Assembly: GCF_000378125.1 (NCBI RefSeq)
Contig: NZ_KB899242.1
Location: forward strand, 744,001-808,000
DNA length: 64,000 nt
Direction: 5' to 3'
DNA from: Rudaea cellulosilytica DSM 22992
Lineage (GTDB): Bacteria; Pseudomonadota; Gammaproteobacteria; Xanthomonadales; Rhodanobacteraceae
The notes beneath the pieces are model-generated. The model made no database searches. It saw nothing but the letters and a program-made list of their open reading frames with translations, and was not told the DNA's origin. Every line of letters begins with the position of its first letter. Positions within the stretch are counted from its first letter, which is position 1. This document shows positions 3,377-43,639 of the stretch, one piece after another. A program made the position numbers and the translations under genes.

Positions 3377-4819
3377 ATGCTGCGCTTTCTCTGTTTCCTC
3401 GCCTTACTCCCGCTTGCCACCGCCACGCATTCCGCCGCGGTCGACGACACCTGGATGAGCGTGCTGCTCGACGGCCGCAAGATCGGCAGCATGCACACCA
3501 CGCGCAGTATTGACGGCGAGCGCGTGCGCACGACGCAGGCAATGCAGATCGAGCTCGAGCGCTCCGGCCTCAAGGTGGCACTGAGCACGAGCGAGAGCGA
3601 CGAGGAGACGCGCGAAGGCAAGCCGCTGCGCTTCGAATCGCGCACGAAAATCTCCGGCATCGAAAACGTGCAGACCGGCGTGATCGGCGCAGACGGCAAG
3701 CTCGAGGTGACGACCGAAGTCGGCGGCGCCAAGCAGGTGCGCACGCAGGTTTGGCCGCAGGGCGCGCTGCTCGCCGAAGGCCTGCGCCTGATCGAGGAAA
3801 GGCACGGACTTACGCCCGGCACGCGCTACAAGACACTTGCATTCCAGGCCGAGAATCTCGAGGCGGTCGAGGTCGACTCGCGCGTCGGCGCGCGCGAGAC
3901 GATAGACCTGCCCGACGGCAAGCGCGAACTCGTGCGCATCGAACAGACGATCGCGCTCGGCGACGCACCGACGAAAACGGTGTCGTGGGTCGAGGCCGAT
4001 TCCAGCGTGCGCAAACTGCTCGTGCCGATGATGGGCTACGAGTTGACCATGCTCGCCTGCTCGAAAGCCTGCGCGACCGCGCCGAACCAGGCATCCGACA
4101 TCCTCGTCGGCACGATGCTTGCCGCGCCGCGCGCGTTGACCGCCGACGAGCGGGCCAAGGGCATGCGCATCATCGTCAGCGCGACCGACACGAGTGGCGA
4201 CGCGCTCAAGTTCGCGACGACCGACGAGCAGCAGTTCTCCGCCGCGGCCGGCGGCAAGGTCGAGCTGCGCGTCGCGCCGGCGTCCTCCACGGGGACATCG
4301 CGCGAAGGCAAGCCGACCGCTGTCGACACGCAGCCGAACGACTGGTTGCAAAGCGCCGCACCCGAAATCGTCAAGCTCGCGCATGACGGCGCGGGCGCAG
4401 CGAAGACGCCGGCCGCGCAGATGCAGAACCTCGAGGACTTCGTGCGCCGCTTCATCCGTACCAAGGACCTCAGCGTCGGCTACGCCTCCGCGCTCGAAGT
4501 GGCGAAAAATCCGGAGGGCGACTGTACCGAACACGCCGTGCTGCTTGCCGCGCTTGGCCGCGCGCTCGGCATTCCGACGCGCGTCGTCGACGGACTCGTC
4601 TACATCGACCACTACGCGGGCAAGAACAACGTCTTCGTGCCGCACGCCTGGGCGCAAGCCTGGGTCGACGGACGCTGGCGCAGCTACGACGCCGCGCTGC
4701 AGGGCTTCGACGCCGGACACGTCGCACTGTCTACCGGCAGCGGCGATCCGTGGCGGTTCTATGCGGGTTTCAGCACGCTCGGACGCGTGCGCGTGGAGGC
4801 GGTCGAGCCGCTGCCCTGA
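3377..4819 (+). CDS. Periplasmic transglutaminase-like protein
   Basis: A 480-residue protein with an N-terminal signal peptide (MLRFLCFLALLPLATATHSA, cleavage near residue 20). Residues ~25-330 form a beta-rich region of unknown function (DDTWMSVLLDGRKIGSMH, a pattern common in this family). A transglutaminase/protease core follows near 345-460: catalytic Cys in GDCTEHAVLLAALGRALG, His in PHAWAQAWVDGRW, Asp in SYDAAL. The complete Cys-His-Asp triad suggests an active thiol enzyme, either cross-linker or peptidase, acting on an envelope protein or peptide. The real substrate is unknown. A weak hairpin follows the stop. Confidence 0.85.
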   Translation: MLRFLCFLALLPLATATHSAAVDDTWMSVLLDGRKIGSMHTTRSIDGERVRTTQAMQIELERSGLKVALSTSESDEETREGKPLRFESRTKISGIENVQTGVIGADGKLEVTTEVGGAKQVRTQVWPQGALLAEGLRLIEERHGLTPGTRYKTLAFQAENLEAVEVDSRVGARETIDLPDGKRELVRIEQTIALGDAPTKTVSWVEADSSVRKLLVPMMGYELTMLACSKACATAPNQASDILVGTMLAAPRALTADERAKGMRIIVSATDTSGDALKFATTDEQQFSAAAGGKVELRVAPASSTGTSREGKPTAVDTQPNDWLQSAAPEIVKLAHDGAGAAKTPAAQMQNLEDFVRRFIRTKDLSVGYASALEVAKNPEGDCTEHAVLLAALGRALGIPTRVVDGLVYIDHYAGKNNVFVPHAWAQAWVDGRWRSYDAALQGFDAGHVALSTGSGDPWRFYAGFSTLGRVRVEAVEPLP

Positions 4820-28030: not shown

Positions 28031-28122
28031 CAAGAAAAGACGTGCACGGCGCACGATGGGCTCAACAAGCCCGGCATCATACGCGTAAACACCAGCGATC
28101 GTCTTCGACGTTCGAAGCGATT

Positions 28123-28159
28123 GCGCCGAACGTTCCGGTCCGTCGGGAACGTTCGGCGC
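28123..28159 (-). terminator. Terminator-like hairpin after the giant gene
   Basis: A perfect 14-bp stem (28123-28136 with 28146-28159) around a nine-base loop, 19 bp after the stop of the giant minus-strand gene. The minus-strand tail (AATCGCTTCG) is only weakly T-rich. Confidence 0.6.
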
Positions 28160-28177
28160 GCCATTGATTTCGGGTCG

Positions 28178-31100
28178 CTATTTCCGTTGCCGCAGTCCGC
28201 GTATGGCTTGATAGGCAAGCATCACCGTCATTAGCCACAACATCCAGCGCGCATCGATCGGCGCCGCCACCGGCGGTATCGTCGGCGTGTATTGCGCACT
28301 GCCCTGCACCGACTGCGCACAGGCCGTCACGTTCGTCGTGTTGTTCTGCGTATCCCAACACGCCGAGGCCGTGTTCGTCACCGCCAACGGACCGTTGACG
28401 AAGCGCGCCTGGAATGCAATCGACAATCGATTCGGCCCCGACGCGGCATTGGCAACACCGTAGTCAGACTGCATCAGTGCGTCCACCACGATGCGGTTGT
28501 TCGCCGCATCGAACGTACAGTTGCTGATCGTCGAGCCACCGAACGTCGTGCAGGTCAGCGTGCCGCTGACGAAGGTCATGTTCGCCGGCATCGGATCGCG
28601 GATCTCCAGGTTCTGTGCCGCCAGGTTCTGATTGTTGTCGACCACGATCGACCACAACAGCGTCTGCGCATTCACCACCGTCGCCGCCTTGGTGATGAAC
28701 GGCGGATCGAACGCATTCGGCGGTGAACTCGTCGTCGTGCCCGTGCATGGCGGCGCGGTGTTGCCCGGACTGCACAGGCCACCTGACGGCGGGGTGACAC
28801 TCACCGTGTTGGTCACCGTGCCCGCCGGCGTCGCACTGACCGTGGCCGTGATCGTGTAGACCACGCGGCCGCCGGCCGGCAAGGTTGCGATCGTTTCGTT
28901 CAACGCACCGCTGTTCGGACCGGCGCCGTTCGGACACACCGCCCCGCCCGTCGCTGCGCAAGTCGTCGAATACGCCGTCAGGCCGCTCGCGATCGGATCG
29001 GACACCTGCGTGTTGTCCGCCGCGATGCTGCCAGTATTGGCCACTGTCACCGTGTAGACGATCGTGCCGCCCGGGATCAGGCTCGGTGTGTTCGCCGTCT
29101 TCGTCACGCTGACTTGCGGCACCGGCGGCACAGTCACCGAGCTCGCGCAGGGTGGCGGCGTGTTGTTCGGCGTGCACAGGCCACCGTTCGGCGGCGTTGC
29201 GGTCGCCGTATTCGTCACGGTCGATGGCGGGGTCGCAATCACGGTTGCCGTCACCGTGTACGTCACCGTGCTACCCGCGGGGAACGTGGCGAGCATTTCG
29301 TTCAAGTCACCCGTGCCGCTCGCGTTCGGACAGACCGCACCGCCACTCGCCGCACACGTCCACGTTTGGCTGGCAATGCCGGTTGGGGCCGGATCGGACA
29401 CTGTCGTCCCGGCCGCACTCACACTGCCCGTGTTGCTCGCCACGATCGTGTAGACGATCTGGCCATTCGGTGTCAGCGTCGTTGCCGGCGTGCTCTTCTG
29501 CACGCTCACCTGCGGCACCGGCGGTACCGTCACGATGCTGTCGCACGGTGGCGCGGTGTTCCCCGGCGTACACACCCCTCCGGGCGGCGGCGTCGCCGTC
29601 GCCGTGTTCGTCACGTGAGCCGGTGGATTCGCGCTTACTGTCGCTGTCACCGTGTACGTCACCATGCCACCCGCCGGAAACGTCGCTAGGGTTTCGTTCA
29701 AGCTACCGCTACCCGACGCGCTCGGACACACCGCACCGCCCGTCGCATTGCATGTCCAGATCTGGCTCGCGATGCCTGCCGGGATCGGATCGGTCACTGC
29801 CGTGCCCGACGCATCGACCGTGCCGGTGTTGCCCACCACGATCGTATAGACGATCGTGGCATTCGGCGTCAGCGTCGTCGCGGTCGTGCTCTTCTGGATG
29901 CTCACCTGCGGCACCGGCGGCACGGTCACTGTGCTGTTGCACGGCGGTTGCATGTTGCCCGGGGTGCACACCCCTCCGGTCGGCGGCGTCGCCATCGCGG
30001 TATTCGTCACGTGCGCCGGCGGCGTCGCGCTCACCGTCGCCGTCACCGTATACGTCACTCCGCCACCCGCCGGGAATGTCGCCAGCGTTTCGTTCAGCGC
30101 ACCGTTGCCGCTGGCGTTCGGACACACCGCGCCACCGGAGGCGCTGCATGTCCAGGCCTGGCTCGCGATACCGGTCGGGATAGGATCCGACACGACTGAG
30201 CCAGACGCACTCACGCTGCCGGTGTTGCTCGCCACGATCGTGTACACGATCGTGGCGTTCGGCGTCAGTGTCGTCGCCGGCGTGCTCTTGGCGATGCTCA
30301 CCTGCGGCACCGGCGCACCGATCACCGTCGCGCTGCACGGCGGCGCCGTGTTCCCCGGCGTGCACACGCCTCCGCTCGGCGGCGTGGTCGTGGCCGTGTT
30401 GATCACCTGCGCCGGTGGGTTCGCACTCACCGTCGCCGTCACCGTGTACGTCACCACATTGCCCGGATCGAAGGTGATCAGGGTTTCGTTCAACGCGCCG
30501 CTGCCACTGGCGTTCGGACATACTCCGCCGCCGCTCGCGCTGCAGGTCCAGGTCTGGCTCGCGATGCCGGCCGGAATCGGATCAGACACGACCGTGGTAT
30601 CCGCATCGATCGAACCGGTGTTGGTCACCACGATCGTATAGATCACCGTGCCGCCCGGGATCAGCACCGACGTGTTGGCCGTCTTGGTGATGCCGACCTG
30701 TGGTACCGGCGGCACGATCACCGTGCTGTTGCACGGCGGCGGCGTGTTGTTCGGTTCGCATACGCCGCCGGTCGGCGGTGTTGCCGTTGCGGTGTTCGTC
30801 ACGTGCGCGGGTGGGGCCTCACTCACAGTGGCGGTCACTGTATAGGTCAGCGTACTGCCCGCCGGGAAGGTCGCCAGCGTTTCGTTCAACGTGCCACTGC
30901 CGCTCGCGTTCGGACACGCGGCGCCGCCCGCGGCGCTGCAGGTCCAAGTCTGGCTGTCGATACCGGTTGGGATCGGATCGGACAAGACCGTACCTGCCGC
31001 GTCGACTGCACCGGTGTTGCTGGCCACGATCGTGTACACGATTTGACCGCTCGGCGTCAGTGTCGTCGCCAGCGTGCTCTTGGCGATACTCACCTGCGGC

Positions 31101-34100
31101 ACGGGCGGCACGATGACGGTACTGCCGCACGGCGGTGCCGTGTTCCCCGGCGTGCACACCCCTCCATTCGGCGGCGTCGCCGTCGCCGTGTTCGTCACGT
31201 GTGCCGGCGGGTTAGCAGCCACCGTCGCCGTCACCGTGTAGGTCACCGTGCTACCTGCAGGGAATGTCGCCAGCGTTTCGTTCAACGCACCGTTGCCGCT
31301 CGCATTCGGACACGCGGCACCGCCCGTAGCGCCGCACGTCCACGTCTGGCCGGCGAGGCCGGTCGCGATCGGATCGGCTATGACCGTACCCGCCGCATCG
31401 ACGGCGCCCGTGTTGTTGACGACGATCGTGTAGACGATCTGGCCGCCCGGCGTCAGCGTCGTCGTCGGCGTGCTCTTCTGGATACTCACTTGCGGGAACG
31501 GCGGCACGACCACGATGCTGTTGCAAGGCGGTGTCGTGTTGCCCGGCGTGCACAACCCTCCGCTCGGCGGTATCACCGTTGCCGTGTTCGTCACATGCGC
31601 CGGCGGGTTGGCGCTCACCGTCGCGGTCACCGTGTAGGTCACCGAACTGCCTGCCGGGAAGATCGCCAGCGTTTCGTTGAGCGCACCGCTGCCGCTTGGG
31701 TTCGGACATGCCGCCCCGCCGGTCGCCACGCTGCAGATCCATGTCTGGCTGGCAATGCCGGTCGGGGGCGGATCGGACACGACTGTGCCCGCGGCATCCA
31801 CCGACCCGGTGTTGCTCGCCACGATGGTGTACACAATCGTGCCGCCCGGCGTCAGCGTTGTAGTGTTCGCCGTCTTGGCGACGCTTACCTGCGGCACCGG
31901 CGGCACAGTCACGATGCTCTCGCATGGAGGCGCGGTGTTGCTCGGCGTGCATACACCTCCGCTCGGCGGCATTGCCGTCGCCGTGTTCGTCACGTGTGCC
32001 GGCGGATTCGCGCTCACTGTCGCGGTCACCGTGTAAGTCACCGAACTGCTCGCCGGGAATGTCGCCAAGGTTTCGTTCAAATTGCCGCTGCCCGAAGCGT
32101 TTGGACAGACGGCGCCACCGCTCGCCGCGCAGGCCCAGGTCTGGCTCGCGATGCCGGCGGGGATCGGATCGGACACTATGGTGCCCGCGGCGCTCACCGT
32201 GCCGGTGTTGCTCGCTACGATCGTGTACACAATCGTGCCGCCCGGCGTCAGCGTCGTTGCCGGTGTGCTCTTCTGAATGCTCACTTGCGGTACCGGCGGC
32301 ACGATCACGATGCTGCCGCACGGCGGCGCCGTGTTGCCCGGCGTGCATACGCCTCCGGGCGGCGGTGTCGCCGTCGCTGTGTTCGTCACCTGTGCCGGCG
32401 GATTCGCGCTCACGGTTGCCGTCACCGTGTAGGTCACCGTGCTGCCGGCCGGAAACGTCGCCAGCGTTTCGTTCAAATTGCCGCTACCCGACGCGTTCGG
32501 ACATGCTGCACCGCTGCTGGCTGCACACGTCCATGTCTGGCTGGCAATGCCGGTCGGGATCGGGTCGGCGACAACCGTGCCCGCGGCGTTCACCACACCG
32601 GTGTTGCTCGCCACGATCGTGTAGACGATCGTGCCGCCCGGTGTCAGCGTCGTTGCCGGTGTGCTCTTCTGGATGCTCACCTGCGGCACCGGCGGCACGA
32701 CCACGATGCTGTTGCACGGCGGCGTGGTATTGCCCGGAGTGCACACGCCTCCCGGCGGCGGATTTACGCTCGCTGTGTTCGTCACGTGTGCCGGCGGATT
32801 CGCGCTCACCGTTGCGGTCACCGTGTAGGTCACCGTGCTTCCGGCAGGGAACGTTGCCAGCGTCTCGTTCAAGTTGCCGCTGCCCGAGGCGTTCTGGCAC
32901 GTCGCACCACCGCTCGCCGCGCACGTCCAGCTCTGGCTCGCGATGCCGGTTGGGATCGGATCGGACACCACGGCTCCTGCCGCGTCGACCGTGCCTGTGT
33001 TGCTCGCCACGATCGTGTAGACGATCTGCCCACCCGGCGTCAGCGTCGTCGCCGGCGTGCTCTTCTGGATGCTGACCTGCGGCACCGGCGGCACCGTCAC
33101 GATGCTGTTGCAGGGCGGCGGCGTGTTGTTCGGCGTGCACACGCCTCCCGACGGCGGCGTTGCCGTCGCCGTGTTCGTCACGTGCGCCGGCGGATTCGCA
33201 CTCACCGTTGCCGTCACCGTATAGGTCACGGAACTGCCCGCCGGGAACGTCGCCAGCGTCTCGTTCAAGCTGCCGGTGCCACTCGCGTTCGGGCACGCCG
33301 CACCGCCGGTGGCGTTGCACGTCCAGGCCTGGCTTGCAATGCCGGCCGGAATCGGATCGGACACCACCGTGCCCGCGGCATCGACCGTGCCGGTGTTGCT
33401 CGCCACGATCGTGTAGACGATCTGATCACCCGGCGTCAGCGTTGTCGCCGGTGTGCTCTTCTGGATGCTCACCTGCGGCACCGGCGGCACCGTCACGATG
33501 CTGTTGCAAGGTGGCGGCGTGTTGGTGGGCGTGCATACGCCTCCCGACGGCGGCGACGCCGTGGCCGTATTTGTCACATGCGCCGGCGGGTTCGCACTCA
33601 CCGTCGCGGTCAAGGTGTAGGTCACCGAGCTGCCCGCCGGGAATGTGGCCAACGTTTCGTTCAACGCACCGCTGCCGCTCGCGTTCGGGCATGAGGCACC
33701 GCCGCTGGCGCTGCATGTCCAGCTCTGACTGGCAATGCCGGTCGGAATCGGATCGGCGACGAGCGTACCCGCAGCATCGACCGTGCCGGTGTTGCTCGCT
33801 GCGATCGTGTAGACAATCTGGCCGCCCGGCGTCAGCGTCGTTGCCGGCGTGCTCTTCTGGATATTCACCTGCGGCACCGGCGGCACCGTCACGATGCTGT
33901 CGCAGGGCGGCGGCGTGTTGTTCGGCATGCACACGCCTCCCGTCGGCGGCGTCGCTGTGGCCGTATTCGTCACGTGCGCCGGCGGGTTCGCAGTCACCGT
34001 CGCCGTCACCGAGTACGTCACCGAGCTACCCGCCGGGAACGTCGTCAGCGTTTCGTTCAGACTGCCGGCACCGATCGCATTCGGGCACACCGCGCCGCCG

Positions 34101-37100
34101 CTTGCCGCACACGTCCATGTCTGGCTGGCAATGCCGGCCGGAATCGGATCGGACACCACCGTGCCCACCGCGTCGACCGTACCGGTGTTGCTCGCAACGA
34201 TCGTGTAGACGATCGTGCCGCCCGGCGTCAGCGTCGTCGTCGGGGTGCTCTTCTGGATGCTGACCTGCGGCACCGGCGGTACCGTCACGATGCTGTTGCA
34301 TGGCGGCGGCGTGTTGTTCGGCGTGCACAGGCCCCCCGTCGGCGGTGTCGCCGTGGCCGTATTCGTCACGCGCGCCGGCGGATTCGCACTCACCGTCGCC
34401 GTGACCGTGTACGTCGTCGCGCTGCTCGCCGGGAAGGTCGCCAGCGTTTCGTTCAACGCACCTGTGCCGCTCGCGTTCGGACACACGGCGCCACCGGCCG
34501 CACTACAGGTCCAGGCTTGGCTGGCGATTCCGGCCGGAATCGGATCGGACACCACCGTGCCTGCCGCACTCACGCTGCCGGTATTGCTCGCCACGATCGT
34601 GTAGACAATCGTGCCTCCCGGCGTCAGCGTCGTCGCCGGCGTGGTCTTGACGATGCTCACCTGCGGCGCCGGCGACAAGATCACCGTGCTGCCGCACGGC
34701 GGCGCCGTGTTGCTCGGTGTGCATACGCCGCCCGTCGGGGGCGTCGCCGTCGCCGTATTCGTCACCGTGGCTGGTGGGTTCGCGCTCACCGTTGCCGTGA
34801 CGGTGTAGGTCACCGTAGCTCCGGCAGGGAACGTCGCCAGCGTTTCGTTCAACGCACCCGTGCCGCTCGCGTTCGGACACGCCGCACCGCCGCTTGCCGC
34901 ACAACTCCAGCCTTGGCTTGCGATGCCGGTCGGGATCGGATCGGCGACGACCGTACCCGGCGCACTCACCGTGCCGGTGTTGCTAACGACGATGGTGTAG
35001 ACCACCGTGCCGCCCGGCGTCAGCGTGCTGACGTTCGCCGTTTTTGCGATGCCGATTTGCGGCACCGGAGGCACCGTCACGATACTGTCGCACGGCGGCG
35101 GCTTGTTCCCCGGAGTGCACAGGCTTCCTGCAGGCGGCACCAAGGTCGCCGTGTTCGTCACCTGCGCGGGCGGTGCTCCGCTCACCGTCGCCGTAACCGT
35201 GTACGTCACCGTGCTGCCGCCCGGGAACGCCGCCAGCGTTTCGCTCAGTCCGCCGCTGCCCGACGCGTTCGGACACGCCGCGCCGCCGCTCGCCGCGCAC
35301 GTCCACGTCTGGCTCGCGATGCCGGTCGGAATCGGATCGGACACGACCGTGCCCGCCGCACTCACCGAACCGGTGTTGCTCGCTACAATCGTGTAGACAA
35401 TCGTGCCACCGGGCGTCAGCGTCGTCGCCGGCGTACTCTTCTGGATGCTCACCTGCGGCACCGGCGGCACCGTCACGATGCTGTTGCACGGCGGCGGCGT
35501 GTTGTTCGGCGTGCACAGGCTGCCGCCCGGCGGCGTCGCCGTGGCGGTGTTGGTCACCTGCGCCGGCGGCGTCGCGCTTACCGTCGCCGTCACTGTGTAG
35601 GTCACCGAGCTGCCGGCCGGGAACGTCGCCAGCGTTTCGCTCAGCGCGCCGCTGCCGCTCGCGTTCGGACACGCTGCGCCGCCCGCCGCACTGCACGTCC
35701 ACGCCTGACTCGCAATGCCGGTCGGGATCGGATCAGACACCACCGTGCCCGGCGCATCCACCGAGCCGGTATTGCTGGCGACGATCGTGTAGACAATCGT
35801 GCCGCCCGGCGTCAGCGTCGTCGCCGGCGTGCTCTTCTGGATGCTTACCTGCGGCGTCGGCGTGACAATGGCCGTACAGGCGCCAGACGGGCAATTCGAC
35901 GGATCCGGAGTGACCACGGTATTTGTCATCGAAGCCGGCGGATTGGGATTCGCCGTCACCGTGTATTTGATCGTCGCCGTCGCGCCCGCCGCCAGCGGAC
36001 CGCTCCACGACAACACCGGCGCTGCGTAGGAGGCCGTGCCGGCCGAAGCGCTCAGGTTGTCGCTGTAGGCCGCGCCGGCGAGCACATTGGTGAGATCGTC
36101 GGTGAACGAAGCCGGCGCTGCCGCCGAGTACGGCATCGTGCCGTTGTTCGTCACCGTAATCGTATACGTCAGCCCTCCGCCCGGTTGGATGACCGGCGCC
36201 GAAGAAGTCTTAGCGAATTTCAGCGTGCACTGCGCCGCCGTCGGCGCCGCAGTAAACGACGTGGAGCCGCTTGAGGTGCCGCCCGGACCATCCGTCAAAC
36301 TGCCCGCCGTGGTCACGACGCTGGCCACATCATTTACCGGCGCGGTGGTCAGACAGGACACCGGCGGCACTACCGTCTGGTAGCACATCTGCATCGGATC
36401 GCCTGTCCACGACAGGGCGGCGGAGGCCGCATTGACTGCCGCCGTATTGGTCACGCCGGTCAAAGTGACTGACGCGCCCAATGATGTGTAGTTACCCGAA
36501 ACGGCCAGCGAGGAAATATCTAGCGTGGTACCGCTCATTACGACGTTGACGAAGCCCGGCACCGGATTGCCGTTGATGTCGTACAGAGTGACGGTGGTCG
36601 ATGCGTACTCGGAACCGGTCAACCCGACCAAGGTCAGCTTGTCCCAATTCGACACGTGCGTCCCGCCGTCGCAGTAGAACGACGTCGGCGTCGTCTTCGT
36701 GACCGTGGTCGAAGCGCTGACGCACGGGCCCCCGGTGCTTGCGTTGAACACGACGATCTGCGCGCCGTCGCCGTTGTCCGCCATGCATCCGGGCAGATTG
36801 GCCAGCGGGCGCACGGTATAGCTCCTCAGGTCTGCCGGGCCGCGGGTCGGCGAGGCGATGCCCGGACCGCTGGTACCGCATTCCGGCACCAAGCCCGTGC
36901 CGACGCGCAGGGCAAAGTCGTAACACAGAGTCGTCACGCTGCCATAAGTTGTGTAGTACTTGGTGCCGATCAGCACGCCTGTGCCGAAACCGAAGCTCCC
37001 GGGGCCAAAGCCGTATTGCGTCGCGCTCCAAGGATTTGCGATCGGCGTGTTCGAGGTGCTGAAGCAGACCGAGTTGTAGACCGCGCAAGCGCCCAGCACG

Positions 37101-40100
37101 GTGCCGGTCGACGAAACGACCGGAAACACTTCGCTGGGGTTCGGCCCACTCTGCACGGGCCCCGTGTACTGCGCCGTGGCAATGGTCGGCGTCGCACCCG
37201 AGATGTTGTAACCGAACAGATAGTTGTTGTTGTTCCACGAATAGGTGAAATACACATAGTTGCCATACGTGCCGAACTCGGCGAAGTAACCTGAATAGGA
37301 CGTGGCCGTCTCGGCGCCCGTTCCAGCATTGACTACGCCGCAAGATGCCCCGTTTGCGCCGACGGTCGGATCGAAACAAACCAGACTGCCGTTGATATCG
37401 GCGTAGTAATACCTGCCGTTGGCAGCTTGAATGCCATCACCGGCGATGCCGAGGGCACCACTCCCCAGCGCGACGGTGTCAAGCTGGATAAAGCCGCAGC
37501 TCACGAGGCTGGTCAGGTTGAGGCACTGCAGGCCAACCGGATAGACACCGCCGACGGCGGCCGACATATGCACCGGCCAATACAGTTTGCCGTTGTAGAT
37601 GAACGAGCCGTTGACTCCAGATGTGGTGCTTTGCCCTGCGCCACCCGTACCGAGCGGGGTCCCCGCAACCGGGCTTACGTAGGTCGAATACGCCGGCCAG
37701 CCAGGGCAGACCGTGTTGCCCAGGGTCGCGCAGAAGACCACCGTTGCGCTGTTGTTGTGATGGAACACGGTGTAGATGTTGTTGCCAAAACCCTCTACCG
37801 AATAACCGTCGCCACCCGGCGTATTGAACGTCAGCGTGCTCGCCAGGAACGGCGGCGCCAGCGCCGAAGTGCCGCTGTTCACGCCAGCGACGCGATTGCT
37901 GCCCGTCGTCAGCGCGCCCACGCCGTTCACTCCGGCCGGTGGCGTGCCCGTCGTCCAGGTGCCGCCGCTGTTGGTCGTGTACTGCATCGACAGGGATGGC
38001 GGTACCTTGAGCGAACCGGGGACGTAGATCTGTCCGTTGGTGATCAGGTCAGTGATATTGACCGTCGCGTTCGAGCCCGTGTTGTTAGAGTAATTCACCA
38101 CCCACTGGATCGTATCGCCCGGCACCGCGGTGCCAGTCGTGCTCGTGCGCGAATCTGAGGTCGAGCTGTTGACGAGATTCTTTGCGTTCTTGAACAGCGT
38201 CGACACGCCGATCGAAGCGTTCGTCAACGTGCAGGAAATCGCCGCACCGTTTACCGGGGTGATCGTCGCCGATCCGCTGAACGCACCGCTCGGCAAGCCG
38301 GTCTGCACGTTGTTCAAATCGGTACAAGAAATATTCGAGCTGTACTTCGACAACGGCGTCGAACCGGAGATCGATTCGGTCAAATAATAAGTGGTGCCCG
38401 CGATGGCGGTGTAAGTGCCTGTCGTGCCCGTTCCTGCGGTGACCGTCGAGCCGGTGCCCGTCGTGGTGGAATTGGCGGTCGAATTCACCACGGTGCCGCT
38501 CGCGCTACCGGTGTGGATTGCGACGGTGAATTGATCGCTCGCCGCGAATCGATTGCCCGCCAACGCTTTCTTCAACGAAATCGTCGGCGCAGTCACCACG
38601 ATTCCCGCGACATCGCTTGGACTCAGTGCCGGCCCGGTCGGCGGCGTCACCGATGCGACCGCGGTATTGATCAGCGTTCCCGCGGCCGATGCCGTCGTCG
38701 TACACGTTTGCGTCTGCGACACACTTGGCGCGAGCGAGCCAACCGTGAAATTGCACGAAGGCGCAATGGCATCGGTCACCGAAATACCGGACAACGCGCC
38801 CGTGCCCAAATTGGTGATCACGATCTTGTACGGAATCGTGTCGCCTAGGTTGTACTGCTGATAGTCGGCCGAAGTATTCGCGTCGTGATAATCCGCAGGA
38901 TTCGCCGGATTGCCACCTTTAACCAACACGTACTTGACGATGCCGAGCGCGTAACAATTGCCGATCGTCGTCGTTGCCGACGAAAGCATCGGCAATGCGG
39001 TGTGACCGGTAATGGAGTTGGCCGAATTGACCAGCAGTTGTCCGGGCTTGTTGTCCGTCGGCGCCGGCGCGGTGCAGCTCGTTCCCGCCGGCGTGGTAAA
39101 CGCGATGCGAATGGTTTGCGAGGCACCGGGTGCGAGCGCAGGCCCGATCACGCGGATCGCGGTCGGCGCAGCCGGCTTGGTCGTCGTCCAACCGACTGTG
39201 TTACCGGCGATGCTGCCCGGCGTGCCGCCGTTGGACGCGGCGCGCGGATCGTTGCTCAGCGTCGACGGATTGGCGGTGGTGTAATACACCGTCGCTCCGG
39301 TCGCGGTCACCGTGCCGATCGTGTACGTCCCACTGATGTTCGTGCCGCGCCCGTCACTGGCGTACGGCAGGATATCGATCGTATCGGTATACGGATTCGA
39401 TACCGGGTCTTGCGAATTGATCGTCAGATCCCACGCCGACGAATCGCCGTAGAAAGACAGCAGACTCGACTCTACCGATTTGTCGAACGTGGTCGCGCCG
39501 TTGTTCGGCACCGTCACGCTGGCGGTTGCTTGTTTTGCGGAGGCTGGGCGGTTGTCTCCGGTAACATCAACCTCCGCCGTGTTGGTGAGAACCGTGCCGG
39601 GCGCGATCGCGCTGTTCGCCGCGGTCTGCGCCTTGTAGGTGATCGGCTGCGGCGTGTTCGCCGGCACGTTCGTGAACGTGTAGGTGAGGATCTGCTGCCC
39701 CGAGCCGTTGGTTGAAAGCGCCGGCACCGGCGTTCCCGATCCGGCGACGTAGGTCATACCGACCGGCAGGGTGTCGGTGACGGTGAAAGTCTGCGCCGGC
39801 GGGCTGGCCGTAGCGAGATCCGCCTCCGCACTGAGCGTGAAGGTCACCGGCACGCCCGGCTGAGCCGACTGGGTCGACGCTGTCTTGGTGATGACGCCAT
39901 TCGGGCCCTGGATGCGCATCGCATCGCGCTGACCGTTGGTATTCGGACCGTAGGTGCTGCCGGGAATGGTCGCATAGACGGTGTTGTTGGCACTGATGTT
40001 GACGTAGTTGTTCAGTGTCGGCCAGCCCGGGAACACGGTCGAAACGTTGTAAGGGGCGTTGAAGGCGCCCACGGTCCACGACTCGGCTCCCACGGGCGCC

Positions 40101-41842
40101 GTTGTCGGGACGTAACCCCATACCCGCAGCGTGTGATGGAATTGTTTGTCCACCGCCGGGTTCCAGGTCATCTTCACGGCGGTGACACCGGCGGGCAGGC
40201 TCACGATGCACAGGTCGTCCGAGTAAGCCGGCGAAATCGACACGGTCTGGCTGGCGCAGGCTGCGGGAAGCGGTGCGGCGATCCATGGGCTTCCGGCGAC
40301 GCCGACCGGCTCGCCGCAGGTCTCAGTCTTCGTATTGATCGCATCGGTGCGGTACCACAGATGCCCGGTCGTCATATTGGTATAGGACGCGCCGTCGACG
40401 CCGACGAAGTCCGCCCATCTCGGGACGAACGCGGCCGGGTTCTGCACCATGCTGCAGGAGCCAGCGATGTCGGCGCCGCCCGCGCCGGTGTAGGCGGACC
40501 AGGTCACACTGTCGGCATTGCTGGCTAACGGCTGGTTATAGATCGTGTAAGGGCCGGGATTGGTCGACGTCCCCGCTGCCGGCCAGGGAAGGGTCAGGTT
40601 CTGCGCCGCGCCCGGCGCGGCCCACAGATTGGCGTCCCACGGCGAGCGGCCGACAGTCGGGCCGCCCGCCCAACTGATCGCGAACACGCCCGGAAGAATG
40701 AGGGTCGTGGTCGAGGAGTCGTTGGAAGTATTGGTCTCGGGCTGAGTAACGCTGTCAATGAAGGTGAACGTGCTCGGCGTCGCTGTGAAGCTCACGCCGG
40801 TGCTGGCCGTGATCTGGCTGGTGTAGCTAAAGATAAGCTGCCCTGCGGCGACGAAGTTCGTCGTCGACGGGATCGCCTGGTAGAGACTGTCAACTGTAGG
40901 GACGTGCTGCAGGGAGTAGTCCAGGCCGCTCAATGTGACCGTATAGTGCGTGCCGCTGCCACTGATCGAACAGGTCGGGAAGTTCGTCCTATTGGGGAAG
41001 CTCGAGGCGGAGTGTGGAATCCCCGGGAATTGCGCAGAGTCGTCGACCGCCGCGCAGCCTTCCCACTGAAGGCCCGGCAACTGGCCGGCGACGGATACTG
41101 CGATATCCACCGTGAATGTGTACGTCGCCGGACCCGGAACGCTGCCCGCAGTCATCGAAACACCGTAGTCGACCACCACGTACGGGCGATTGCCGCCGCT
41201 GCGACTGGTGATGGTGTTTTGCTGGTAATTCTGATTTGGCGCGCCGAGTATCAGATCCATGCCGTGGCTGCCGGTGATCGTGAGACCCGGCGTGGTTACC
41301 GATGGCGTTGGAGCCGCGGCGGAGTCCGAAGTGGCGCTTCCCGATACCGACAACGTCGATCCCACCGTGCCGTTGGCCTTAAGCGGTGCCTGGATGACGG
41401 TCGCCGTGCCTTCATTGATCGTGCCGAGGTTGCACACCAGCTGGGTGCCGTTGGCGCTGATCGCCGACACCGGAGTCACACCGGTCGTCTTGCACATCGA
41501 GGGGATACTTGAAAATGCCCCGTTGGCGGCGATCAACGTGACACGTACGTTATTCACAGGGTCGTTCGCCTGCGGATTGTTCGCGTCATTTGTGCTGACA
41601 TGCCACTCGGCCGTCACCGTGCCGCCGTAGGGCGCCGTTGCCGGTGATCCCAGCCAATTCGTCGTGATCTCATGAGTGGCGGATGTCGCCGCCGACGCCG
41701 CTGGCGCAATTGCGAATGCCCCCAAGATTCCGACTGCAGTGGTCAGATGCAGAAACAGACGAGCTAATCGACTCTTTGCGCCTACGGGCTTCGGAACAAG
41801 GGCAAAGCGGTAGTTTGTGTGAGGGACTCCGGACACAGACAT
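28178..41842 (-). CDS. Giant secreted DUF11-repeat protein (~4,550 aa) with C-terminal sorting-like tail
   Basis: One uninterrupted frame of 4,554 codons from ATG 41842, eight bases after AGGGAG; ATG 41848 is too close to it. A signal peptide ends after APAASA (near residue 51). Residues ~52-1330 hold several Ser/Thr/Gly-rich beta-sandwich and DUF11-type modules. About 1340-1710 resembles a beta-propeller (YVYFTYSWNNNNYLFGYNIS). Eighteen tandem 132-residue repeats fill 1997-4373, each with PQVSIQKSTPATTLTPGGTI, NTG and two Cys pairs (WTC...CPN, VCTP...PPC). The last ~180 residues are a divergent module ending IPPVAAPIDAR, a hydrophobic helix (MLWLMTVMLAYQAI) and RGLRQRK, the tripartite layout of IPTL/PEP-CTERM tails. 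Probably a long surface fibre or adhesin; inferred. Monocistronic, divergent from an orphan response regulator. Confidence 0.92.
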   Translation of the reverse strand: MSVSGVPHTNYRFALVPKPVGAKSRLARLFLHLTTAVGILGAFAIAPAASAATSATHEITTNWLGSPATAPYGGTVTAEWHVSTNDANNPQANDPVNNVRVTLIAANGAFSSIPSMCKTTGVTPVSAISANGTQLVCNLGTINEGTATVIQAPLKANGTVGSTLSVSGSATSDSAAAPTPSVTTPGLTITGSHGMDLILGAPNQNYQQNTITSRSGGNRPYVVVDYGVSMTAGSVPGPATYTFTVDIAVSVAGQLPGLQWEGCAAVDDSAQFPGIPHSASSFPNRTNFPTCSISGSGTHYTVTLSGLDYSLQHVPTVDSLYQAIPSTTNFVAAGQLIFSYTSQITASTGVSFTATPSTFTFIDSVTQPETNTSNDSSTTTLILPGVFAISWAGGPTVGRSPWDANLWAAPGAAQNLTLPWPAAGTSTNPGPYTIYNQPLASNADSVTWSAYTGAGGADIAGSCSMVQNPAAFVPRWADFVGVDGASYTNMTTGHLWYRTDAINTKTETCGEPVGVAGSPWIAAPLPAACASQTVSISPAYSDDLCIVSLPAGVTAVKMTWNPAVDKQFHHTLRVWGYVPTTAPVGAESWTVGAFNAPYNVSTVFPGWPTLNNYVNISANNTVYATIPGSTYGPNTNGQRDAMRIQGPNGVITKTASTQSAQPGVPVTFTLSAEADLATASPPAQTFTVTDTLPVGMTYVAGSGTPVPALSTNGSGQQILTYTFTNVPANTPQPITYKAQTAANSAIAPGTVLTNTAEVDVTGDNRPASAKQATASVTVPNNGATTFDKSVESSLLSFYGDSSAWDLTINSQDPVSNPYTDTIDILPYASDGRGTNISGTYTIGTVTATGATVYYTTANPSTLSNDPRAASNGGTPGSIAGNTVGWTTTKPAAPTAIRVIGPALAPGASQTIRIAFTTPAGTSCTAPAPTDNKPGQLLVNSANSITGHTALPMLSSATTTIGNCYALGIVKYVLVKGGNPANPADYHDANTSADYQQYNLGDTIPYKIVITNLGTGALSGISVTDAIAPSCNFTVGSLAPSVSQTQTCTTTASAAGTLINTAVASVTPPTGPALSPSDVAGIVVTAPTISLKKALAGNRFAASDQFTVAIHTGSASGTVVNSTANSTTTGTGSTVTAGTGTTGTYTAIAGTTYYLTESISGSTPLSKYSSNISCTDLNNVQTGLPSGAFSGSATITPVNGAAISCTLTNASIGVSTLFKNAKNLVNSSTSDSRTSTTGTAVPGDTIQWVVNYSNNTGSNATVNITDLITNGQIYVPGSLKVPPSLSMQYTTNSGGTWTTGTPPAGVNGVGALTTGSNRVAGVNSGTSALAPPFLASTLTFNTPGGDGYSVEGFGNNIYTVFHHNNSATVVFCATLGNTVCPGWPAYSTYVSPVAGTPLGTGGAGQSTTSGVNGSFIYNGKLYWPVHMSAAVGGVYPVGLQCLNLTSLVSCGFIQLDTVALGSGALGIAGDGIQAANGRYYYADINGSLVCFDPTVGANGASCGVVNAGTGAETATSYSGYFAEFGTYGNYVYFTYSWNNNNYLFGYNISGATPTIATAQYTGPVQSGPNPSEVFPVVSSTGTVLGACAVYNSVCFSTSNTPIANPWSATQYGFGPGSFGFGTGVLIGTKYYTTYGSVTTLCYDFALRVGTGLVPECGTSGPGIASPTRGPADLRSYTVRPLANLPGCMADNGDGAQIVVFNASTGGPCVSASTTVTKTTPTSFYCDGGTHVSNWDKLTLVGLTGSEYASTTVTLYDINGNPVPGFVNVVMSGTTLDISSLAVSGNYTSLGASVTLTGVTNTAAVNAASAALSWTGDPMQMCYQTVVPPVSCLTTAPVNDVASVVTTAGSLTDGPGGTSSGSTSFTAAPTAAQCTLKFAKTSSAPVIQPGGGLTYTITVTNNGTMPYSAAAPASFTDDLTNVLAGAAYSDNLSASAGTASYAAPVLSWSGPLAAGATATIKYTVTANPNPPASMTNTVVTPDPSNCPSGACTAIVTPTPQVSIQKSTPATTLTPGGTIVYTIVASNTGSVDAPGTVVSDPIPTGIASQAWTCSAAGGAACPNASGSGALSETLATFPAGSSVTYTVTATVSATPPAQVTNTATATPPGGSLCTPNNTPPPCNSIVTVPPVPQVSIQKSTPATTLTPGGTIVYTIVASNTGSVSAAGTVVSDPIPTGIASQTWTCAASGGAACPNASGSGGLSETLAAFPGGSTVTYTVTATVSGAPPAQVTNTATLVPPAGSLCTPGNKPPPCDSIVTVPPVPQIGIAKTANVSTLTPGGTVVYTIVVSNTGTVSAPGTVVADPIPTGIASQGWSCAASGGAACPNASGTGALNETLATFPAGATVTYTVTATVSANPPATVTNTATATPPTGGVCTPSNTAPPCGSTVILSPAPQVSIVKTTPATTLTPGGTIVYTIVASNTGSVSAAGTVVSDPIPAGIASQAWTCSAAGGAVCPNASGTGALNETLATFPASSATTYTVTATVSANPPARVTNTATATPPTGGLCTPNNTPPPCNSIVTVPPVPQVSIQKSTPTTTLTPGGTIVYTIVASNTGTVDAVGTVVSDPIPAGIASQTWTCAASGGAVCPNAIGAGSLNETLTTFPAGSSVTYSVTATVTANPPAHVTNTATATPPTGGVCMPNNTPPPCDSIVTVPPVPQVNIQKSTPATTLTPGGQIVYTIAASNTGTVDAAGTLVADPIPTGIASQSWTCSASGGASCPNASGSGALNETLATFPAGSSVTYTLTATVSANPPAHVTNTATASPPSGGVCTPTNTPPPCNSIVTVPPVPQVSIQKSTPATTLTPGDQIVYTIVASNTGTVDAAGTVVSDPIPAGIASQAWTCNATGGAACPNASGTGSLNETLATFPAGSSVTYTVTATVSANPPAHVTNTATATPPSGGVCTPNNTPPPCNSIVTVPPVPQVSIQKSTPATTLTPGGQIVYTIVASNTGTVDAAGAVVSDPIPTGIASQSWTCAASGGATCQNASGSGNLNETLATFPAGSTVTYTVTATVSANPPAHVTNTASVNPPPGGVCTPGNTTPPCNSIVVVPPVPQVSIQKSTPATTLTPGGTIVYTIVASNTGVVNAAGTVVADPIPTGIASQTWTCAASSGAACPNASGSGNLNETLATFPAGSTVTYTVTATVSANPPAQVTNTATATPPPGGVCTPGNTAPPCGSIVIVPPVPQVSIQKSTPATTLTPGGTIVYTIVASNTGTVSAAGTIVSDPIPAGIASQTWACAASGGAVCPNASGSGNLNETLATFPASSSVTYTVTATVSANPPAHVTNTATAMPPSGGVCTPSNTAPPCESIVTVPPVPQVSVAKTANTTTLTPGGTIVYTIVASNTGSVDAAGTVVSDPPPTGIASQTWICSVATGGAACPNPSGSGALNETLAIFPAGSSVTYTVTATVSANPPAHVTNTATVIPPSGGLCTPGNTTPPCNSIVVVPPFPQVSIQKSTPTTTLTPGGQIVYTIVVNNTGAVDAAGTVIADPIATGLAGQTWTCGATGGAACPNASGNGALNETLATFPAGSTVTYTVTATVAANPPAHVTNTATATPPNGGVCTPGNTAPPCGSTVIVPPVPQVSIAKSTLATTLTPSGQIVYTIVASNTGAVDAAGTVLSDPIPTGIDSQTWTCSAAGGAACPNASGSGTLNETLATFPAGSTLTYTVTATVSEAPPAHVTNTATATPPTGGVCEPNNTPPPCNSTVIVPPVPQVGITKTANTSVLIPGGTVIYTIVVTNTGSIDADTTVVSDPIPAGIASQTWTCSASGGGVCPNASGSGALNETLITFDPGNVVTYTVTATVSANPPAQVINTATTTPPSGGVCTPGNTAPPCSATVIGAPVPQVSIAKSTPATTLTPNATIVYTIVASNTGSVSASGSVVSDPIPTGIASQAWTCSASGGAVCPNASGNGALNETLATFPAGGGVTYTVTATVSATPPAHVTNTAMATPPTGGVCTPGNMQPPCNSTVTVPPVPQVSIQKSTTATTLTPNATIVYTIVVGNTGTVDASGTAVTDPIPAGIASQIWTCNATGGAVCPSASGSGSLNETLATFPAGGMVTYTVTATVSANPPAHVTNTATATPPPGGVCTPGNTAPPCDSIVTVPPVPQVSVQKSTPATTLTPNGQIVYTIVASNTGSVSAAGTTVSDPAPTGIASQTWTCAASGGAVCPNASGTGDLNEMLATFPAGSTVTYTVTATVIATPPSTVTNTATATPPNGGLCTPNNTPPPCASSVTVPPVPQVSVTKTANTPSLIPGGTIVYTVTVANTGSIAADNTQVSDPIASGLTAYSTTCAATGGAVCPNGAGPNSGALNETIATLPAGGRVVYTITATVSATPAGTVTNTVSVTPPSGGLCSPGNTAPPCTGTTTSSPPNAFDPPFITKAATVVNAQTLLWSIVVDNNQNLAAQNLEIRDPMPANMTFVSGTLTCTTFGGSTISNCTFDAANNRIVVDALMQSDYGVANAASGPNRLSIAFQARFVNGPLAVTNTASACWDTQNNTTNVTACAQSVQGSAQYTPTIPPVAAPIDARWMLWLMTVMLAYQAIRGLRQRK
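28724..35854 (-). repeat. Eighteen tandem 396-bp repeats inside the giant gene
   Basis: Reading leftward, each unit starts at the Pro-Gln codons of PQVSI. The first unit begins at 35854 and the eighteenth at 29119, a distance of 17 x 396 + 3 bp. The extra codon is in unit 11 (CSVATGG). Units are highly alike in DNA and differ mainly at third positions and in a few variable residues. Units 3, 11, 14 and 18 carry a KTAN variant of the first strand; the others carry KSTP or similar. The length of the array makes assembly collapse or length variation likely. Confidence 0.93.
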
Positions 41843-41848
41843 CGACAT

Positions 41849-42783
41849 AGCTCCCTGTTGTTACTTGACGGGTGAACTCGCGAGGCGCGAAAGCGCGTAA
41901 GCACGCGTATCGATCTCGGCGCACGACGATTCGGTCCCGGCGATACCGATTCGCCGGAAAGACCCTTGTGCTTCATGAGACGTCGACCAACTAGAGCGGA
42001 TGCGCGCGTCCGCTGAGCGAAATCGGCAAGCGATAGCGCGTTCTGCAAACGCGGCTCGGTTAGCAGGTTCGTTTGAAATGAAAAGCGAAAAAATCGATCG
42101 CGCACCCGAGCGGCGCGACGAAGTCATCCATTGGTCTGCTCTGCTTTCCGCTTCGCCGTCGATCGATCGCAGCGGCCACGCAAACTCACTCGCCATACCT
42201 AGCAGCATGCCTCACCCCGGTGCCTGAGTTTTGTCGCGAAACAAGATCAGAATCCGTCTGATCGCGATCGGCGCTCATCACGCAATATTGGAGATCGGCC
42301 GCAAGACACTACCTGCGACGAAGATCGCCCACCCTTGAAATTGCGTGAGGAATTGTGCGAACGCGTTAGTGCGTTGGCCGGAAGGTAACGAATCAGCAAG
42401 GCAGATTCATTCACCAATTCTCACCGATTCTCACATCGTCAAATCAACGGCATCGAAGATCGAAATTCGCAGCATGAAGAAAAGTTCATGTTGTTCGATG
42501 CGATGACGCCGTGCGCGGAGAAACGAGCACTGATACTGATTCGATGAGCGATATGAAAAAATGAATATATCGATCAGATTTCCTTGGTGCACAAAGGAAT
42601 TCGACGTATTGCAAAGGCGATCTGCGTGCACGCGCGGCGCGCATCGCAAAAAAAAACGTCGACAACCATCATCCTTCCGACTTATAACGATTGATACAAA
42701 TGTGACCGCTATCACTCCGAAAAAAATTTCGGAGCCTGCACAATTCGCGGTTGCCGTGATTCGTTCCAATGTGATCGATTGTC
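41849..42783. promoter_or_regulatory. 935-bp divergent regulatory spacer
   Basis: A gene-free spacer between the giant gene (minus) and the orphan regulator (plus), richer in A+T than its flanks from about 42240. On the giant-gene side it has a CCGGCGA/TCGCCGG hairpin (41937-41957) that would be in the mRNA leader. Further out are GATCAGA/TCTGATC (42246-42264), direct repeats at 42411-42434, and CTCCGAAA/TTTCGGAG (42715-42734) about 50 bp before the regulator start. TATAAC at 42683 is a possible -10 for the regulator. Short open frames here have no Shine-Dalgarno or recognisable product. Confidence 0.6.
42405..42434. promoter_or_regulatory. 10-bp direct repeats, candidate response-regulator site
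   Basis: TCAC recurs at 42411, 42421 and 42431, exactly 10 bp apart, in the decamers TCACCAATTC and TCACCGATTC and a shortened third copy; ATTCA precedes the first. OmpR/PhoB-type regulators bind direct repeats one helical turn apart, and an orphan regulator of this type starts 350 bp away. The link is inferred. Confidence 0.45.
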
Positions 42784-43482
42784 GTGTCTTTTAAAGTTGC
42801 TGTGCTAGAAAATGATTCCTCTTCGCTCACCGACACAGTTACCCCCGGACTGACTTCGCTTGGATTCGATGCCGAAGGTTTCGGCACGGCAAACGAGCTG
42901 TACCGGAGGATGCTCGCCAAATCGTTCGACGCGATCGTTGTCGATATCGCCGTACCTGACGAGAATGGATTTGAGGTTGCGCACTATCTGCGCGCCCATT
43001 CCCGACTCGCCATCGTCGCTGTGGGCAAGTCACGTCTCAGCGAAGCGGACAAAATGAAGGTGCAAGCGGACGCCTGGCTGACCAAACCGATCGACATCGA
43101 CGTGCTCGGCGCCGTCCTCTCCGATCTGCACAAGCGCAAGCTGTCAGGCGGTCTCGCGCGGACTACGGCGAAGAGATGGCGAGTCGATCCGACCGACTGG
43201 AAACTGTATGCGCCGGACGGACGCAACATCACGCTTAGTCTGTCCGAACGGTTGGTCATGCAGCGGCTGCTGGTCGCGCCCGGCGAGGTGGTCGCACGCG
43301 ACGAGCTGATCACCGTGCTCACCGACAGCGCCTACGACTTCGATCCCCATCGCCTGGAAATGCTCGTCCATCGCCTGCGCCGCAAAGTCAGCAATACGCT
43401 CCTTCTTTCCCTGCCGTTGCGCACCGTGCGCGGCATCGGCTACACGATGCTGACTTCGGCTGGAGATTCCGCTCATCTCTGA
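42784..43482 (+). CDS. Orphan OmpR-type response regulator
   Basis: A 232-residue regulator starting at GTG 42784. The receiver domain has phospho-Asp54 in IVVDIAVPDENG and Lys in LTKPIDI near residue 97, with an atypical LENDSS acidic pocket and AVGK in place of the usual LTA. The C-terminal winged helix has LSLSERLVMQRLLVAPGEVV, RLEMLVHRLRRKV and LRTVRGIGYTML. No kinase gene is adjacent. It diverges from the giant repeat gene, making that gene the first candidate target. The product could be phosphorylated by a distant kinase or act constitutively. Confidence 0.88.
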   Translation: MSFKVAVLENDSSSLTDTVTPGLTSLGFDAEGFGTANELYRRMLAKSFDAIVVDIAVPDENGFEVAHYLRAHSRLAIVAVGKSRLSEADKMKVQADAWLTKPIDIDVLGAVLSDLHKRKLSGGLARTTAKRWRVDPTDWKLYAPDGRNITLSLSERLVMQRLLVAPGEVVARDELITVLTDSAYDFDPHRLEMLVHRLRRKVSNTLLLSLPLRTVRGIGYTMLTSAGDSAHL

Positions 43483-43639
43483 AGACCGTTCGGCACGGCT
43501 TCCATCCCTCGTTTGCCTTGCCCTGCGCCCCCGCGCGGTGCTCGTCGCTTCGGCAAAAAGTAAGGACTGTCATATTTCGCTTGCGTTGCATGGTTAGGAT
43601 TTGCGATCGTCTGTATCGAAGCATCGGGAAGTCCACGTC

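Follow-up and report, generated by a model that had tools for sequence, protein, structure and literature searches.

The giant surface-protein gene of Rudaea (P0001), found within the window (the whole 64,000 nt stretch of DNA that was analysed), is best read as encoding a fibrillar adhesin in which an actinobacterial head has been grafted onto a Gram-negative, cross-linked stalk. The head is absent from a second Rudaea giant protein that matches the rest of P0001, which argues that a head of actinobacterial type and a Rudaea backbone were joined at approximately residue 1088/1089. The full picture of a giant Rudaea fibrillar adhesin, with the actinobacterial head as its tip, a cross-linked stalk of 18 units, an exosortase H tail and a block shared with a regulator, is considered fairly probable.

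Gene and domain organization

An initial annotation had described one giant open frame of about 4,550 residues at 28178–41842 with the strand unstated. A single frame of 4,556 aa is indeed present; it lies on the minus strand, with its start codon at 41848 and its stop at 28178 (Table 1). The signal peptide proposed at that time was recovered as a hydrophobic N-terminus (the highest Kyte-Doolittle windows start at residues 31–39) with an AxA-type end placed by eye at about residue 53, and the mature start of the actinobacterial relatives is similar. P0001 therefore combines a signal peptide with a repeat stalk, the combination used as a criterion for fibrillar adhesins. The earlier assignment of the repeats to DUF11 was borne out by the Pfam model (PF01345), which scored 674.6 bits against a cut-off of 24.6 over 19 stretches. 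The whole protein contains 108 cysteines, 72 of them in the array. An Rfam search gave no hit, and searches of PDB sequences found no relative, one of them returning weak antibody-domain hits only.

Table 1. Features of the giant gene and its surroundings (window coordinates; residues are those of P0001)
Feature	Coordinates	Strand	Basis and remarks
Giant surface-protein gene P0001	28178..41848	-	single open frame, 4,556 aa; DUF11 in 19 stretches, E 6.4e-207
Signal peptide, residues 1-53	41690..41848	-	cleavage by AxA rule, by eye
Actinobacterial-type head, residues 54-971	38936..41689	-	identity to actinobacterial loci; trees
DUF7507-type (CLIPPER_2) domain, residues 972-1088	38585..38935	-	PF24346, best stretch 998-1075; also present in Actinobacteria
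SpaA_3 prealbumin-like domain, residues 1089-1226	38171..38584	-	PF20674, E 2.1e-24; first domain of Rudaea-type backbone
Unclassified section (formerly 'propeller'), residues 1227-1870	36239..38170	-	no Pfam match at E 10
DUF7927 domain, residues 1871-1998	35855..36238	-	PF25549, E 5.1e-23; 83 % identity to L079
Stalk, 18 tandem four-Cys DUF11/CLIPPER units, residues 1999-4377	28718..35854	-	unit alignment; K7, D41, N102, C54, C62, C114 and C123 invariant
C-terminal module, residues 4378-4556, with IPTL-like tail at 4523-4556	28178..28717	-	identity to L079, L017 and L011; tail comparisons
Response regulator, divergent from giant gene	42784..43482	+	PF00486 and PF00072
15.5-kb block, giant gene plus response regulator	28091..43566		flanked by MFS gene and ppx/gppA; missing from four relatives

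Distribution and phylogeny of the head

Over aligned residues 56–985 the head is 71–79 % identical to six actinobacterial loci, the giant DUF11/DUF7927 proteins of Leifsonia, Arthrobacter and Humibacter (L016, L018–L022; head of about 930 residues), and 53–55 % identical to four more. Identity to the orthologue in Rudaea sp. 3F27F6 (L017) is 80 %, so that the six actinobacterial loci are about as near to P0001 as its counterpart within the genus. A comparison of residues 1–655 with 84,980 species genomes, by a scan that needs exact short peptides and against incomplete collections, returned 11 loci: one from Rudaea (L017) and ten from actinobacteria, at best-segment identities of 47–79 %. The actinobacterial hosts were Leifsonia (2), Arthrobacter (2), Microbacterium (2), Humibacter, Cellulosimicrobium, Salinibacterium and one further actinobacterium. 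The same segment was matched in 2 of 16 genomes of the genus and 2 of 197 of the family, these being the same two genomes. Residues 400–985 found only the own genome and two weak partial hits among 398 genomes of the phylum. Within the family of the Leifsonia locus they were matched in 25 of 299 genomes, seven of which aligned over nearly the whole query at 54–80 % identity, the others being partial or distant.

In a tree of 21 head sequences the Rudaea pair falls within a clade that also holds eight actinobacterial rows (support 100/100). The pair stays nested (98/98) in a reduced tree from which six of the 21 rows were left out, three for long branches, two for odd composition and one, L080, as incomplete. 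L080 is broken into two frames, and L025 and one copy of L083 are incomplete at the sequence end. Grouping of the inner actinobacteria as one clade was rejected (AU p 0.035), although the group was chosen with the first tree already known. As the head trees have no true outgroup, the direction of transfer rests on midpoint rooting, on the broader distribution among actinobacteria and on the chimeric structure of the protein. Transfer from Actinobacteria to Rudaea would be the direct reading of these sequence comparisons. The GC content of the head (0.62–0.66) and its GC3 (0.77–0.83) carry no foreign mark. The phage and plasmid collections gave no sign of a candidate vehicle: residues 400–985 had no match in the former and one partial 37 % match, from Arthrobacter alpinus, in the latter.

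Pfam scans of 12 head sequences found no adhesion domain. DUF11 was recognized in one of the 12 and a marginal Mala_s_1-like match, with E 0.067 at best, in two; the two heads with the latter match are those of relatives, and the match is a possible lead to the fold of the head. The C-terminal part of the head (653–762) resembles DUF11/RrgB-D2 isopeptide-type domains, and TIGR04226, with a cut-off of 30 bits, scored 31.6 bits on the whole of P0001 but 20.5 bits when the head was searched by itself. The AF2 model of the head is poor (pLDDT 61.9), and Foldseek run on that low-confidence model gave no lead. With no adhesion domain and a poor model, a role in adhesion is inferred from the architecture. 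The head is conserved across phyla while the length and type of the stalk and the anchor vary, which suggests that the head is the functional part.

Chimeric build of the protein

The genome that carries L017 encodes a second giant protein, L079, of 4,029 aa with 18 four-Cys units. P0001 and L079 are 67–89 % identical over residues 1089–1998 and 82 % identical over the last unit plus the C-terminal module (4244–4556). Residues 56–1088 of P0001 have no match in L079 at E 1e-5, and the N-terminus of L079 is different.

Individual segments fall on either side of this junction. The DUF7507-type domain is 52 % and 65 % identical to the domains of the actinobacterial loci L016 and L019; neither L017 nor L079 has a match to it at E 1e-5. 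The SpaA_3 domain that follows has no match in L016 or L019 and is nearer to L079 (77 %) than to L017 (about 60 %). For the section of residues 1227–1870, previously called propeller-like, no Pfam model gave a match even at E 10, and the two NCBIfam hits were both below cut-off. This section occurs in 2 of 197 family genomes; its identity to L079 is 67–89 %, and it has no match in L017. At the other end of the protein, the last unit and tail are 82 % identical to L079 versus 78 % to L017, with quartet support of only 79/79. The nearness of the P0001 backbone to L079 rather than L017, together with the lack of section 1227–1870 in L017, points to one head on two backbones.

The C-terminal module by itself is 82 % identical to L079, 76 % to L017 and 58 % to L011, a paralogue from the own genome (C1, about 1976–1978 kb, 2,730-aa frame) that has this module and the tail in common with P0001. 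None of the other P0001 segments tested was shared with L011, in a comparison that covered the L011 frame beyond its first part.

The 15.5-kb block and its response regulator

Among 16 genomes searched, the MFS and ppx/gppA flank genes were found on one contig in six, the window included. The two homologues adjoin in four of these (G002–G005), about 136–274 bases apart. Collinearity of G003 with the window stops at 28090 and resumes at 43567, and these two edges are 9 bp apart in G003; the edges are looser in G002, G004 and G005, with 174–263 bp in between. At the block edges there is only a single 10-bp direct match and no clear target-site repeat. Absence of the block in the relatives could in principle also be due to loss.

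In the genome of Rudaea sp. 3F27F6 (G001) the MFS-ppx gap (L090, G001:C12) is filled by 7.1 kb of other ORFs, which suggests a variable site. The corresponding site in G005 (L086) holds about 260 bp that are unmatched in the window and have inverted ends, AGAACCTATCTCAAAA ... TTTTGAGATAGGTTCT; the MFS-ppx gap may therefore be a repeated insertion spot.

Among ORFs of 150 aa or more, two genes were recognized in the 15.5-kb block, namely the giant gene and the response regulator. L017 lies elsewhere in its genome, away from the MFS-ppx site and next to a gene which we take, by eye, to be threonine synthase. A homologue of the response regulator, 64.5 % identical, is again located upstream of L017, and the giant gene and regulator are thus found together at two sites. 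As far as the contig of L079 reaches, no homologue of the regulator was found near that gene.

Divergence and turnover of the stalk units

Residues 1999–4377 consist of 18 tandem units of 132–134 residues, in line with the 18 units of 132 residues first described. They had also been taken as near-identical, which does not hold: mean pairwise identity is 76.8 % at the protein level (range 52–89 %) and 76.8 % at the DNA level, with a median dS of 0.66 and a median dN/dS of 0.24. The units are old and under purifying selection. The longest exact DNA match among the 153 unit pairs is 41 bp, and with identity, dS and exact matches at these values the array is very unlikely to be an assembly product. 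An assembly artefact was rejected on this divergence among units.

In L017 the best matches of units 3–16 are at 92–98 %. Mean unit identity is 76.8 % within P0001, 83.4 % within L017 and 67.9 % between the two proteins. The last units of P0001 and L017 are mutual best matches at 77 %, near the 76 % of the C-terminal flank, and L017 units 1 and 2 are closest to P0001 units (80 %); for the remaining units of both proteins the closest match lies within the same protein. Since identity is higher within than between the proteins and best matches are mostly internal, the two arrays expand and homogenize largely independently. The unit-by-unit comparison with L079 covered the last unit of the array.

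Ig-like units are assumed to be 4–5 nm long, and at that length a stalk of 18 units would be some 70–90 nm long.

Predicted isopeptide bond of the DUF11/CLIPPER units

DUF11 was renamed CLIPPER in 2025, and the domain is closed by a Lys-Asn isopeptide bond, according to the published description (PMC12617251). The solved CLIPPER structure 9IFR, from a fibrillar adhesin of Acinetobacter silvestris, has a Lys715-Asn806 isopeptide with Asp748 nearby and a disulfide C818-C821 (PMC12617251). A K7, D41, N102 triad is kept in 18 of 18 P0001 units and 17 of 17 L017 units, in 150 of the 160 units outside these two proteins and in 92 of 97 actinobacterial units. The spacings in P0001 (K-D 34, K-N 95) are near those read from the 9IFR description (33, 91), and in both cases the next cysteine, the disulfide cysteine, is 12 residues past the triad Asn. 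P0001 and 9IFR are thus alike in family, triad and tandem use in a stalk. They differ in that P0001 has a CX8C pair where the 9IFR protein has a CXXC motif, an additional pair C54-C62, 18 units, and an IPTL-like tail instead of an OmpA-like anchor.

When 33 natural unit pairs (17 from P0001, 16 from L017) were supplied as AF2 input, units 6+7 of P0001 were modelled with a pLDDT of 96.8 and a pTM of 0.84. The best 50 of 1,853 Foldseek matches of the unit model are integrins, AgI/II C-domains, PrgB and other Ig-like folds; 9IFR is absent from these 50.

The initial annotation had proposed a stalk stabilized covalently by disulfides. A stabilized stalk is supported, but the likely main lock had been missed: with K7, D41 and N102 invariant, a Lys-Asn isopeptide bond is likely to be the principal lock of each P0001 unit.

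Paired cysteines

The four cysteines per unit noted at the outset, in two close pairs and about 72 in number, were found at unit positions 54, 62, 114 and 123 in all 18 units (72 in total), and are invariant in all 35 units of P0001 plus L017. Cysteine pairing was then counted in the 160 DUF11 units outside these two proteins, 19 of which come from L079, a Cys being accepted within 2–3 columns of each position. The counts derive from the 196 of 323 aligned DUF11 stretches that cover positions 7–123, the others being dropped and 21 overlapping loci excluded beforehand. At positions 54/62 both cysteines are present in 53 units, the first only in 0, the second only in 18 and neither in 89; at positions 114/123 the figures are 124, 8, 1 and 27, respectively. 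Phi is 0.79 and 0.83 within the pairs and -0.26 to 0.22 across them. Gain and loss of cysteines mostly by pairs is the pattern expected from two local disulfides gained and lost independently, and the covariation backs the cysteine pairing first proposed. Each unit would thus probably hold two disulfides (C54-C62 and C114-C123) and one isopeptide bond.

A regular four-Cys DUF11 unit had been regarded as unusual. Four-Cys units, however, recur in related Xanthomonadales: of 44 Xanthomonadales units outside the three Rudaea giants, 29 have both pairs, 6 pair 1 only, 3 pair 2 only and 6 neither, although the 44 are mainly from best-scoring loci, so that the proportion with both pairs is best taken as an upper estimate. 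In this sample the four-Cys form is not rare among the closest relatives of the order. Among 97 actinobacterial units none has pair 1 and 73 have pair 2, and the stalk units of the six giants nearest in the head lack the first Cys pair, unlike those of P0001. A profile of the unit was matched in 135 of 398 genomes of the order at E 1e-10, a match that does not by itself imply four cysteines; best scores were 229–242 bits inside the genus and 168 or less outside.

Another DUF11 protein of the own genome (L009, G000:C2 about 331.8–334.8 kb, 2,041-aa frame), with an IPTL-like tail, has six units with the first Cys pair and other cysteines, the second pair being absent by eye.

C-terminal tail and anchoring

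The tail had been described as membrane-spanning. Inspection by eye shows a short hydrophobic segment followed by basic residues, but none of its 17-residue hydropathy windows exceeds 1.6. Seven of ten actinobacterial relatives end, by eye, in LAxTG followed by a hydrophobic segment and basic residues; two have variants (AFTG, LPEAG) and one is broken off at the contig end. Of the six nearest giants five end in LAxTG and L019 in a variant. P0001, in contrast, has no LPxTG/LAxTG motif at its end, by eye, and does not qualify as a sortase substrate. Sortase was found in 10 of 10 actinobacterial genomes and in 0 of 2 Rudaea genomes (G000, G001).

The own genome has one exosortase match, to exosortase H (TIGR04177; 167.4 bits, cut-off 86). 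Four other ORFs of this genome are over the IPTL-CTERM cut-off, with none in 14 control genomes, and four own-genome tails (L009, L011, L027 and L030) resemble that of P0001 in having P-x-x-x-R-W, a hydrophobic stretch and a basic end. P0001 thus shares with the exosortase H/IPTL-CTERM system (TIGR04177, TIGR04174) the presence of exosortase H in the genome and, in the tail, the Trp, hydrophobic stretch and basic end. It differs in that its tail is under the curated cut-offs: midcut-by-XrtH gave 13.9 bits (cut-off 45), and the tail was not among the matches of the IPTL-CTERM model at E 1. Exosortase H and the similar own-genome tails make exosortase anchoring likely, even with scores below the cut-offs.

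Within the window, the C-terminus of an ORF of about 250 aa (L029, 57562–57630) is over the IPTL-CTERM cut-off with 21.3 bits. This ORF sits just before a glycosyltransferase-like gene and is a possible further exosortase H substrate.

Proposed mechanism and alternative readings

In the mechanism proposed here the signal peptide would export P0001, and the head of about 1,000 residues, acquired from an actinobacterium, would serve as a putative binding tip, as its place in the architecture suggests. The 18 DUF11/CLIPPER units would form a long stalk that holds the tip away from the cell. Within each unit a Lys7-Asn102 isopeptide with Asp41 as catalyst is predicted from sequence, and two disulfides (C54-C62, C114-C123) may add stability, for a predicted 54 cross-links in total. 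Heat and protease resistance have been reported for the single isopeptide lock of CLIPPER, and disulfides accompany isopeptide bonds in 29.7 % of CLIPPER domains (PMC12617251); three covalent locks per unit, in combination, may resist force, heat and proteases. Comparison with L017 shows that repeat turnover within the gene lengthened and homogenized the stalk, with the last unit kept as a recognizable orthologue. Exosortase H would probably process the C-terminal tail, a role that falls to sortase in the actinobacterial relatives, and the giant gene and regulator may have arrived together, with the regulator presumably controlling the giant gene.

Other readings differ on what the protein does and how it is held. 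P0001 could be a surface coat or spacer, forming a layer or brush, with a head that has no ligand or is an enzyme. The lack of a recognized adhesion domain and the poor head model speak for this, as do the DUF11 repeats of archaeal proteins proposed as part of the S-layer (PMC12617251); a head conserved across phyla while stalk and anchor vary is nonetheless the pattern expected of a functional tip, and a coat or spacer is judged unlikely. The tail as a plain membrane anchor, or as no anchor at all, with no exosortase step and P0001 periplasmic or exposed otherwise, is a real if lesser possibility. No sorting model reaches its cut-off and hydropathy is weak, but against this stand the P-x-x-x-R-W pattern in four other own-genome tails, the four other ORFs over the IPTL cut-off and the presence of exosortase H. 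The initial annotation's picture of disulfides as the essential stabilizer, with the isopeptide absent or marginal, can appeal to four cysteines that never vary in the 35 units of P0001 and L017. It is improbable, since K/D/N are equally invariant in those units and the actinobacterial units keep the triad (92/97) beyond pair 2 (73/97) and pair 1 (0/97).

As to origin, the head could instead have passed from Rudaea to Actinobacteria, or both groups could have received it from a third donor outside the sample; this would be compatible with trees that have no true outgroup and with an exact-peptide scan of incomplete collections. The wide actinobacterial spread as opposed to one genus, the nested tree position and the mounting of the head on a Rudaea-type backbone make this quite unlikely. 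That P0001 is an artefact of assembly or contamination is extremely improbable: repeats can misassemble, but the units are too different to be confused, an orthologue exists in a second genome of the genus, and the flank genes are also present in further genomes of the genus. The grafted fibrillar adhesin can be placed in a wider proposal, held with slightly better than even confidence, in which heads move between phyla as whole tips of about 1,000 residues and are remounted on the stalk and anchor of the new host; in Rudaea one actinobacterial head would have come to sit on two backbones, on a stalk with three locks per unit, and would travel together with a response regulator of its own as a cassette of two genes.

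Relation to known adhesins and significance

CshA-type fibrillar adhesins are described as spreading by domain shuffling (PMC10952558). The head of P0001 differs in having no CshA-type or other adhesion domain, and P0001 differs in offering one high-identity graft that can be traced, with a likely donor group, a junction and an empty site. CLIPPER stalks were already known. The head family of P0001 is new in the literature searched, as far as could be found, and the same applies to a high-identity graft from a sortase-type into an exosortase-type setting, to the two-gene block and to a CLIPPER stalk whose units each have two likely disulfides. Literature searches on Rudaea adhesins or chimeric adhesin heads gave nothing relevant by title, and none was found on DUF11 in Xanthomonadaceae.

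In P0001 the passage of a surface-protein tip from a Gram-positive to a Gram-negative setting can be traced in a natural example, with a probable donor group, a junction, an empty site and a second backbone. With these in hand, the function of the head can be asked about apart from the stalk and anchor. The stalk is likewise a natural test of how a single domain combines isopeptide bond and disulfides, which would be useful in work on protein mechanics and on stable scaffolds.
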